NCBI RefSeq assembly: GCF_032191465.1
Contig: NZ_JAQOUE010000001.1
Location: 744,001-808,000, forward strand
Direction: 5' to 3'
DNA length: 64,000 nt
Origin: Candidatus Nitronereus thalassa
GTDB taxonomy: Bacteria; Nitrospirota; Nitrospiria; Nitrospirales; UBA8639
Under the pieces are notes generated by a model that worked only from the letters and a program-made list of their open reading frames with translations, searched no databases and had not been told where the DNA came from. This document shows, one piece after another, positions 58,455 through 62,576 of the stretch. Both the position numbers and the translations under genes were made by a program. Positions within the stretch are counted from its first letter, which is position 1; each line of letters opens with the position of its first letter.

Positions 58455-58807
58455 CTGGCTTTGGGGGAGTGGCAAGAGTAACGATATCTCATCATACTTG
58501 AGACGAAGTCTCCCCAGGTGCTAAGGCTGGTCTTTTTTCGCGAAATTCACACGGTAAAAATTTGCATAAATTTTCTGCCGCTTTTTCGTCGCAACACGAC
58601 TTGAGAGACGACTCAAACCCAGCCTTTCGTAATATCCATCGCCATCTTTGGTCTAGGCTCTACCCCATAATCCTGTCGGTTTGAATAGATACCTGCTCTT
58701 TTCCCGCCATAACCTTGAAGTGGCATTTACCTTTTGGCTAACTTTACGACTCACCAAAGACCGCATGGGGTTTCATAGACAATTTCGGATGTGTCAAGGT
58801 TCCAATC
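58455..58807. other. Intergenic region without recognised gene
   Basis: This 353-base gap between two plus-strand genes has small hairpins (GAGACGAAGTCTC near 58500 and TTGAGAGACGACTCAA near 58601) but no tRNA shape, no clear promoter and no coding frame. The promoter of the J-domain gene should lie in its right part. Confidence 0.35.
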
Positions 58808-59719
58808 ATGATTAACGGCAAAAATTACTACCAAATTCTCGGTGTGCCCGAAGACGCTCTTCTCAAGGAAGTACAGAGTGCCTGGCGGAGATTAGCCAAA
58901 GAAAATCATGAAGATGTCGTACCCGAATGGGAACGGCAAGCCGCCAAGGAGCGGATGATCGTCATCAACGAAGCCTATGCGGTCCTCAGTGACGAAAACA
59001 AGCGGGCCGACTATGACAATGGGCACATGCTTAATGGTGGATCAAAGATTGAACTGGTGAGGAGTCGAGTCAGAAGGGCAAAAGAAATCATTCAAAAACC
59101 ATGCTCGCTGATTACCGTAGAAGATATCAAAATGATCGAGTCCATCATTGATTACCTTGAAAGAAAAAACCAAGAGGCCTGTTTTGCCAAAATGAGTGAT
59201 TTGCTGCTCGAACAACCTAGCATGGCAAAATATACAGTTTCCCTAGCTTTTGATGAACAGCTCTTAAATGTAGAAACACAATTGCTGGACACCCTACTGG
59301 AAAAGGCGTCGTACGTCATCACGTTTGAAAAAGTCTATCTTTATGGAGAAGACATTATTGGGGTAACCGGCAAAGAAAACAAAGAAAGAAATTACAACCA
59401 ACTGGCCCGAATCCTATTCCATCGTCAGGATTTGGCGAAATACTTTGTGTATCCAGCTTTTCAAGAGCAAGTCTCCGGATGCGAAAGCAGCCTCCTTCGA
59501 ACTTTGCTACGCGTTGCCCCGGAAGTCCTGACGCAAGAGGATTTTGACAACTACGTCAATTCCGTCAACGACATCCGCTGGCATATCCATCACAACTTAA
59601 GAAGCTATAACGAACAAGCCATTGACTGGATTCTTCGGGCCAGACCAAACCTTAAGAGAAAACCAGAAAAGAAAAAATCTAAAAAGGAACTGCCCTTTCC
59701 ATTACGGTCAGGGTCATGA
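58808..59719 (+). CDS. J-domain protein with altered HPD motif and a 70-residue tandem repeat
   Basis: This 303-residue protein begins with a DnaJ-type J domain (NYYQILGVPEDALLKEVQSAWRRLAKENHED, residues 6-36, and INEAYAVLSDENKRADYDNG). The HPD tripeptide that stimulates Hsp70 is H34-E35-D36. From about residue 101 the rest consists of a 70-residue repeat: copy 1 (102-170), copy 2 (171-240) aligned without gaps, and a partial copy 3 from 241. Shared positions include LL---Q-MAKY-V--AF-EQ ... E--LL-TLL--A--V. No known domain is recognised there. The tail is Lys-rich. Function unknown. Confidence 0.8.
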   Translation: MINGKNYYQILGVPEDALLKEVQSAWRRLAKENHEDVVPEWERQAAKERMIVINEAYAVLSDENKRADYDNGHMLNGGSKIELVRSRVRRAKEIIQKPCSLITVEDIKMIESIIDYLERKNQEACFAKMSDLLLEQPSMAKYTVSLAFDEQLLNVETQLLDTLLEKASYVITFEKVYLYGEDIIGVTGKENKERNYNQLARILFHRQDLAKYFVYPAFQEQVSGCESSLLRTLLRVAPEVLTQEDFDNYVNSVNDIRWHIHHNLRSYNEQAIDWILRARPNLKRKPEKKKSKKELPFPLRSGS

Positions 59720-59850
59720 ATACAAGATTTTTTAACTATAACTACCCACTATGACCAGGACATTTAACTTAAGATCATTCTTATCAGACTACGTTGCAAA
59801 TCAATGTGGTTTCACAAGACCCAACCCCCAAACAATGCCCTCATTTCCGC

Positions 59851-60691: not shown

Positions 60692-61456
60692 CTACCAGAC
60701 GTTCCCGGCACCCGGTGTGTAGCTTGAAGCAATCACGCTCTTGGCCTGCATGGTTTCACATTTCACAATCCCATCACAATCAACCAATGCGGCCTTTAAT
60801 TTGACGGTGGCTGCAGAAACATCCAACGTAGAAGCATTGATTTTCACCTTGGCCGAAGAGGAAATTTCAATCCCGCTTGATGTCAATTTGATCACATTAC
60901 CATTCGTATCCATGATGTGAACCTGGCCTCCTGAGCCGTCTTTAATCTCGATCCGCTGTCCAGCAGGCGTGCGTAATTCCATCGACTCCTGCCCTTCTTT
61001 ATCATTGATCCGCAATCGCACGCCGCTTCGGGTCTTCAAAGTTTTAAGGTCGTTGTTCCCTTCCCCGTCCATGGACTCCGGCGGTTGGTCTTGTCCGTTC
61101 CACAAGGCCCCGACGACATAGGGGGCGCCGGGGTTGCCTCCTTCAAACGCCACCAAAACCTCATCCCCAACATCTGGAATCCACCAGGTCCCACGTCCCG
61201 CCCCAGCCATTGGGCAGGCGAGACGAGCCCAAACCTGTAACGGAGGTGCTTTACCGACTCCAGGCAACGTACTACCAGATACCTCCGCAGCAGGGGCCCA
61301 CGGCAACTCGACCTGCACCCGACCGAGTTGATCAGGGTCTTTTACGTCGTTGACCAGCGCCGGGTACACGCCGAACCACCGGTCGGCTGGTATTTCGCGG
61401 ATTCGTGGATATGGGCTTGCGTGGTAGGATTGGTTTCTTTCGAATGGTGTTATCAC
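60692..61456 (-). CDS. Contractile injection system spike / baseplate assembly V-type protein
   Basis: This 254-residue protein has an OB-fold domain like gp5/gpV (DRWFGVYPALVNDVKDPDQLGRVQVELPW ... RLACPMAGAGRGTWWIPDVGDEVLVAFEGGNPGAPYVVGALWNG) followed by a repetitive beta-strand C-terminus (RLRINDKEGQESMELRTPAGQRIEIKDGSGGQVHIMDTNGNVIKLTSSGIEI) resembling a needle shaft. It is the puncturing tip of tail-like injection devices. GGAGG six bases before GTG 61456 fixes the start, within the preceding gene by 125 bases. Confidence 0.88.
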   Translation of the reverse strand: MITPFERNQSYHASPYPRIREIPADRWFGVYPALVNDVKDPDQLGRVQVELPWAPAAEVSGSTLPGVGKAPPLQVWARLACPMAGAGRGTWWIPDVGDEVLVAFEGGNPGAPYVVGALWNGQDQPPESMDGEGNNDLKTLKTRSGVRLRINDKEGQESMELRTPAGQRIEIKDGSGGQVHIMDTNGNVIKLTSSGIEISSSAKVKINASTLDVSAATVKLKAALVDCDGIVKCETMQAKSVIASSYTPGAGNVW

Positions 61457-62576
61457 CTGTGACCTCCTTTTTCGAACGGCGCGGAGCCTTGCGATTCAAC
61501 CAGGCACGTTCGGCTACAAATTCAGTTTGGAAACCTGTGAGCGACGAAAACGAATGAGTGACGGCTATAAGATAATAATCTCCCTCAAAAAATGAACCTA
61601 CTTGTGAAATGTTTACCACCGTACCGACACGCAGCTCGGGATGGTCCAAAGCTTTTCCTGTGGCGCGCACAAACTCACCGGCTTTTTCTCGATAAAATTG
61701 TTTAGCAAGCGTCTGGGCCTGTTCTCCCGAAGTAGGCAGACTCTTCACTTCGTGGATAAGAGTATGACCACCAGTGAATTCTTTCAAAATCTTGGCCGCG
61801 GTTTGGCCCCCTGCGCTCACAGAGCCTCCCAAGCTTGAGTCTTTGCCAACTCCGGTAATGCGTTGTTTCATACCAACATCCCAGCCAGTGACGCGCAACT
61901 CTGTGCCTTGTCCTTGGAGATCTGCCCGCGCGTGAAATTGAATGAGATTTTTACCCATGGCCAGATCAATGGGACCAGACATCCGCTCCTCGCGTGTCAC
62001 GGCATGCAGCGTGTTGTCTTCAATCCACAATTCCCCACCAGCCGCCCGTACACGTTCAAAACAAAACCCCAGATCAGTTTGGTTAAATTGCACCACACGT
62101 TCATGCGTCGGGCCACCAAGCGAAATTTGAGGAGTGAGGCCGTGCTCACCAGCAATGACGTTCAAAATGTCAGCGTCGGTCACGGATTCAAAAATTCGGT
62201 TTCGTATCAGCAGGCCAAAATCCGATAAACGATCCTCTGCGGTAATAACGATTTCCGGCGGATACGAAAGAGTGGTGTGTCCCTCAATGGCAGTAATCTG
62301 CCCGGAAAAAAGAATCAGCGCCGAATCCCCGGATTTGACTCGAAACATGATCTTCCGCCCAAAATCTAGATATGCCTGATCAAAATAGAGAAAATTGGGT
62401 TCCGAACTCGACGATGAACTTCCCCAATTCAGGAATCGAGCGGAAGCCACCGCATGGCCCTGCACGGAAGAGGTCAACTGCATTTCCAGAAGGTGTTCAC
62501 CAAGCTTTTCGACCACCGTACCATCGATCAGAATTTCGGGTCGCAAGCTTACAGAAAAATCCGAGGTCTCTAACAT
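61332..62576 (-). CDS. Contractile injection system hub protein (VgrG/Pvc8, late control D-like)
   Basis: This 414-residue protein matches the phage late control D/VgrG hub half: FSVSLRPEILIDGTVVEKLGEHLLEMQLTSSVQGHAVASARFLNWG, then DILNVIAGEHGLTPQISLGGPTHERVVQFNQTDLGFCFERVRAAGGELWIEDNTLHAV. It should form the baseplate hub that carries the spike encoded next. The C-terminal 55 residues are basic and Pro-rich (KKPILPRKPISTNPRNTSRP) and lie in the overlap with the spike gene. No sheath, tube or ATPase gene lies nearby in the window. Confidence 0.87.
   Translation of the reverse strand: MLETSDFSVSLRPEILIDGTVVEKLGEHLLEMQLTSSVQGHAVASARFLNWGSSSSSSEPNFLYFDQAYLDFGRKIMFRVKSGDSALILFSGQITAIEGHTTLSYPPEIVITAEDRLSDFGLLIRNRIFESVTDADILNVIAGEHGLTPQISLGGPTHERVVQFNQTDLGFCFERVRAAGGELWIEDNTLHAVTREERMSGPIDLAMGKNLIQFHARADLQGQGTELRVTGWDVGMKQRITGVGKDSSLGGSVSAGGQTAAKILKEFTGGHTLIHEVKSLPTSGEQAQTLAKQFYREKAGEFVRATGKALDHPELRVGTVVNISQVGSFFEGDYYLIAVTHSFSSLTGFQTEFVAERAWLNRKAPRRSKKEVTGDNTIRKKPILPRKPISTNPRNTSRPVVRRVPGAGQRRKRP

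Follow-up and report, generated by a model that had tools for sequence, protein, structure and literature searches.

An HED-bearing J-like domain joined to predicted helical repeats in a family of Nitrospirales

What does a J domain do when its HPD tripeptide reads HED and it is followed by a long tandem repeat? This question is raised by a 303-aa protein encoded in the window, i.e., the whole 64,000-nucleotide stretch of DNA that was analyzed. J proteins of type IV are already known and have mostly been described from eukaryotes. They are defined by a recognizable J domain in which HPD is non-conservatively replaced (PMC13254874). The 303-aa protein falls within this definition, as its J domain is recognized and HED is present in all 20 orthologues. 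We give a slightly better than even chance to the reading that it is a bacterial member of the type IV (pseudo) J-domain proteins, that it combines a J-like docking module with an alpha-solenoid adaptor, and that it would not stimulate DnaK. The features of the gene are collected in Table 1.

Table 1. Features of the pseudo-J gene and its product (window coordinates)
Feature	Position	Strand	Support
Gene for pseudo-J-domain protein, 303 aa, ATG to TGA	58808..59719	+	ORF; 20 orthologue sequences; purifying selection
J-like domain, residues 6-70	58823..59017	+	Pfam PF00226, E 6.7e-16; predicted helices 7-11, 15-32, 40-61, 63-75 (model confidence low here)
Gln23, aligned with E. coli DnaJ R22 (DnaK contact)	58874..58876	+	Q in 13/13 family vs K in 45/45 canonical J domains
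HED tripeptide, residues 34-36, replacing HPD	58907..58915	+	HED in 20/20 orthologues; P in 45/45 canonical J domains
Lys47, helix III charge reversal	58946..58948	+	K in 13/13 family vs E in 45/45 canonical J domains
Ile51 (Phe or Ile in the family), aligned with E. coli DnaJ K48 (DnaK contact)	58958..58960	+	F10/I3 in family vs K35/R10 in canonical J domains
Helix 80-96, linking J domain to repeats, with conserved ELVRxRVR	59045..59095	+	Model; alignment
Repeat copy 1, residues 102-170, helices 104-116, 119-135, 137-142, 144-152, 159-170	59111..59317	+	Model; repeat comparison
Repeat copy 2, residues 172-240, helices 173-184, 189-205, 207-212, 214-222, 229-236	59321..59527	+	Model; repeat comparison
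Possible half copy 3, residues 243-278, helices 243-259 and 262-278	59534..59641	+	Place in model; weak sequence support
C-terminal tail, residues 283-303, basic, probably disordered, conserved ELPxPLRS at end	59654..59716	+	pLDDT about 36-42; conservation

The HED motif and the DnaK-facing surface

The Pfam DnaJ model scored the J domain of the 303-aa protein at 58.6 bits, against a cut-off of 27.8. The codons of residues 34-36 are CAT GAA GAT, and the preliminary description, which had read H34-E35-D36 in place of HPD, was borne out. It had also allowed for HED being a change in one genome whose homologues carry HPD. This was not the case, because HED was found in 20/20 orthologue sequences (a few of them from the same or near-identical genomes), which likewise rules out a one-off mutation or a sequencing error. 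The codon for Glu35 was GAA in 10 of these sequences and GAG in the other 10. This synonymous variation indicates that Glu is maintained by selection at the protein level. The replacement of Pro by Glu takes at least two base changes.

To place the motif in its context, 13 J domains of the family were aligned with 45 canonical J domains from Nitrospirales genomes. The canonical set was drawn from the best-scoring matches with a pattern that allowed HPD, HED, HPE, and QPD equally, and some of the 45 are one gene repeated. Position 35 was Pro in all canonical domains and Glu in all family members. Three further positions differed fully between the two groups, namely 23 (Lys to Gln), 47 (Glu to Lys), and 51 (Lys/Arg to Phe/Ile), whereas Arg27, His34, Asp36, Arg66, and Tyr69 were retained in the family. 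Positions 23 and 51, aligned to the E. coli sequence, presumably correspond to R22 and K48 of DnaJ. Of the basic DnaK-contact set at the DnaJ positions R22, K26, and K48, Arg27 (K26) alone is kept, with Gln23 and Phe/Ile51 replacing Lys or Arg. In the crystal structure, residues R22, K26, R27, K48, and K51 of E. coli DnaJ contact DnaK, and P34 packs on P419 of DnaK (PMC8215388). In simulations of DnaJ P34A, helix II extended into the motif, and H33 and D35 became unsettled (PMC13012618).

The altered J domain is under strong constraint. Residues 1-71 had a median dN/dS of 0.065, against 0.108 in residues 85-288, with the many pairs that were saturated at synonymous sites excluded, and the mean amino-acid identity was 81% in the J part vs 68% in the solenoid. 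As the dN/dS of the J part is below that of the rest, the J part is functional in some sense. The contrary proposal, that a solenoid protein merely carries the J domain as a remnant for which there is no longer selection, draws on the lost motif, on the patchy presence of the gene within the family, and on one damaged-looking copy (G009). It is contradicted by the J part being the most conserved part of the protein and by the many invariant J residues, and we regard it as very improbable. The damaged-looking orthologue (L126 / L016) contains an apparent frameshift out and back at about residues 183-225, to be explained by an error of assembly or by damage at an early stage.

The repeat region and its predicted fold

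The region after the J domain contains a clear internal repeat. An ungapped diagonal at offset 70 (residues 111-174 vs 181-244) reached a BLOSUM62 score of 98, whereas other offsets scored at most 23 and the best diagonal per shuffle averaged 26, with a maximum of 46 (1000 shuffles). When copies 1 and 2 were compared as family profiles by hhalign, the probability was 98% (E 2.7e-13). The offset of 70 without gaps thus agreed with the preliminary description, but the partner of the first copy is 172-240 rather than 171-240 (69 positions, 22 identities). The partial third copy given there had weak sequence support (hhalign probability 8-13%, P 0.002-0.004) yet was compatible with the predicted helix register, since the model helices 243-259 and 262-278 fall about 70 residues beyond helices 173-184 and 189-205. 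Within a protein, the copies share a mean identity of 28%, whereas each copy is 62% and 77% identical between species. The copies therefore diverge more from each other than each does between species, which places the duplication before the spread of the family.

The repeat region had no convincing match to a Pfam, NCBIfam, PHROG, or PADLOC family. With E up to 1 allowed, no HEAT/ARM Pfam model matched the window protein, and none matched consistently across 16 orthologues; one of the 16 had a sub-threshold match to the ARM model of USP9X (E 0.045). In a PDB sequence search the best match was EFHC2 (E 0.00055 over 64 residues), which was judged to be due to chance because the domains of EFHC2 are beta-rich.

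An AlphaFold2 model (AF2), calculated from an alignment of 10 rows and of low confidence in the J part, was all helical over residues 85-280, with pLDDT mostly 84-95 and dips near 57-70. Its helix pattern recurs every 70 residues, with about five helices per unit. Structure comparison of the solenoid model (Foldseek/VIA) returned karyopherins, CLASP and other TOG domains, and armadillo chains at Z 9-11; a Z of about 11 is within reach of unrelated helical repeats, for which the caution line of the tool is about 13. The C-terminal region is thus predicted to be a HEAT/TOG-like alpha-solenoid. Because this arrangement is common, the match points to a kind of fold and to no function. Within the libraries searched, the repeat stands as a new sequence family, and its predicted fold is that of an ordinary HEAT/ARM/TOG alpha-solenoid. 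The earlier suggestion of an undescribed helical repeat family with a repurposed J module is supported by two results: no meaningful Pfam, NCBIfam, or PHROG match was found, and three DnaK-facing positions changed while DnaK remained constant. The suggestion is qualified by the ordinary predicted fold, the restriction to a single bacterial family, and the presence of only two full copies.

Distribution, neighborhood, and Hsp70 partners

Full-length orthologues (59-78% identity) were present in 13/24 genomes of the window's own Nitrospirales family, in 0/16 genomes from three other families of Nitrospirales, and in none of about 275 phylum genomes outside the window's family. A profile of the C-terminal region gave seven matches among 295 phylum genomes, all in the same family, and no relative outside it was found in IMG/VR and plasmid searches. 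The all-species scan returned Nitrospirales/Nitrospirae records, including isolate UBA8639, and one record labelled Alphaproteobacteria. The copy in that record, L040 (JAJFIT010000185.1), is nearly identical to that of the Nitrospirales MAG L043, and the record is probably misbinned. Because isolate UBA8639 itself was among the matches, the carrier family is apparently UBA8639, lineage IV of the nitrite-oxidizing Nitrospirales (PMC12342949). The carriers are some marine-type nitrite-oxidizing bacteria.

Within the family, it is the larger genomes that carry the gene (Mann-Whitney P 0.0003, uncorrected for kinship), and it is missing from every sampled genome of genus g4, all of them small. The small g4 genomes without the gene and the larger carriers resemble the IVa/IVb split (PMC12342949). 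The sister genome G001, of the same genus as the window, also lacks the gene. Relative to G001, gene order breaks at 58456-59833, with the upstream and downstream flanks on separate contigs; the downstream flank in G001 adjoins a transposase-like ORF (L140:185-1147). The gene tree placed the copy from the window together with copies from genus g5, so that transfer or rearrangement is possible. One genome with an intact gene has, on another contig, a lone fragment of the 3' end of the gene (EARPDLMRKPEEKKPAKELPYALR; L125, G015:C39:32337-32408).

The gene is apparently monocistronic. Its start codon was not preceded by an obvious Shine-Dalgarno sequence at window positions 58780-58807, nor were the start codons of those orthologues that were read, and the upstream DNA contained neither a shared promoter block nor an excess of promoters or terminators. 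The neighborhood is not conserved among genera and suggests no partner. Phage/T6SS-type baseplate genes (Phage_base_V, Phage_GPD) adjoin the J gene at 60692-62576 on the minus strand. An operon or system context was rejected, as neighbors vary across genera and the GPD-type baseplate gene had no relative in the four related genomes searched, two of which carry the pseudo-J gene. A TIR-like protein of 757 aa (L042:1815-4088, minus strand) is encoded a few genes away from one orthologue. J proteins of about 300 aa from other Nitrospirales families (L119:1027-1896, L120, L121:1006-1926, L122, L123) were rejected as relatives because they combine an intact HPD with a nuclease-type ERCC4 domain (in L119, Pfam ERCC4 E 3.8e-10). 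The fusion of an HPD J domain to ERCC4 is an unusual pairing.

DnaK and an HscA-like Hsp70 are present in nearly every genome of the family, and in the window's genome the latter adjoins an HscB-like J protein. No additional Hsp70 that tracks the pseudo-J gene was found among the family genomes. Residues R167, E206, E217, L391, P419, and D477 of DnaK (E. coli numbering) are identical in carriers and non-carriers, which confines the change to the J side. Neither a dedicated extra Hsp70 nor a compensating change in DnaK was thus found.

Possible functions and comparison with known systems

That three DnaK-facing positions changed together while DnaK stayed constant fits a repurposed J module. 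We propose that the J fold was retained and constrained while the face that fits DnaK was rebuilt (Pro35 to Glu, loss of the basic residues equivalent to R22 and K48, and charge reversal in helix III). From the sequence, we infer that the protein would no longer stimulate the ATPase of DnaK, that the J-like module would instead dock onto another protein, as an adaptor, and that the two-and-a-half helical repeats may form a second binding surface, holding a client or a structural partner. Against this docking reading, the protein retains His34, Asp36, and Arg27, the key base of helix II, and may therefore still bind Hsp70 weakly or in an altered way. Stimulation of Hsc70 has also been reported for a designed J-like sequence that lacks HPD (PMC13254874), which likewise counts against the reading.

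The same retained residues, along with the J fold and a Pfam score far over the cut-off, would suit a working class C co-chaperone in which HED is tolerated, DnaK or HscA is stimulated, and specific clients reach Hsp70 by way of the solenoid. Both Hsp70s are available in the carriers, and in E. coli DjlB/DjlC an HPE motif is functional with HscC, a divergent Hsp70 (PMC13254874). However, several DnaK-contact changes were fixed together, P419 and the charged contacts of DnaK show no compensating change, and the carriers have no additional Hsp70, so that we consider such a co-chaperone unlikely. We judge it quite unlikely, and a shade less credible, that the pseudo-J domain pairs with an active J domain of DnaJ/CbpA type, or competes for DnaK, and thereby tunes or localizes the chaperone. 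The precedent is Pam16 (DKE), which pairs with and restrains Pam18 (PMC13254874), and the carrier genomes contain several canonical J proteins; yet none is encoded nearby, and the sequence bears no sign of a J-J interface. A broader proposal, which we put somewhat short of even, is that in lineage IV nitrite oxidizers a bacterial J module uncoupled from Hsp70 serves, together with new 70-residue helical repeats, as a dedicated regulator or scaffold that is either Pam16-like or wholly independent of Hsp70.

This family offers a clean bacterial case: HED has become fixed, the remainder of the surface that faces DnaK has shifted along with it, DnaK is constant, and the J domain is strongly constrained. 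The altered Hsp70-driving surface and the helical repeats together probably mean a different job. As the protein is small and soluble, it should lend itself to expression and assay. A literature search found no paper combining "HED motif" with "J-domain".

The canonical DnaJ and CbpA of the same genomes share with the pseudo-J family the J fold, the His and Asp of the motif, Arg27, and the KR..YD of helix IV, and differ from it at the Pro replaced by Glu, at K23 (Gln), E47 (Lys), and K/R51 (Phe/Ile). None of the zinc finger, G/F region, and beta-sandwich of class A/B proteins (DnaJ, CbpA) was seen in the 303-aa protein, where Pfam detected the DnaJ domain only and the model is all helical. The predicted fold of residues 80-290 matched HEAT/ARM/TOG alpha-solenoids (CLASP TOG, karyopherins, beta-catenin) at Z 9-11, under the caution line of the tool; the repeat unit has 70 residues and about five helices, and the window protein has no sequence match to a HEAT/ARM Pfam model. 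E. coli DjlB/DjlC (HPE, partner HscC) are likewise bacterial J proteins that depart from HPD; their change is at the Asp and goes with a divergent Hsp70, whereas the pseudo-J carriers have no extra Hsp70. The type IV (J-like, pseudo-J) proteins Pam16/Tim16, DNAJB13, and those of Plasmodium likewise have a recognizable J domain whose HPD has undergone a non-conservative replacement (PMC13254874). These named proteins are eukaryotic, and in the cited literature none has HED or this solenoid, whereas the pseudo-J family keeps both the His and the Asp of the motif.
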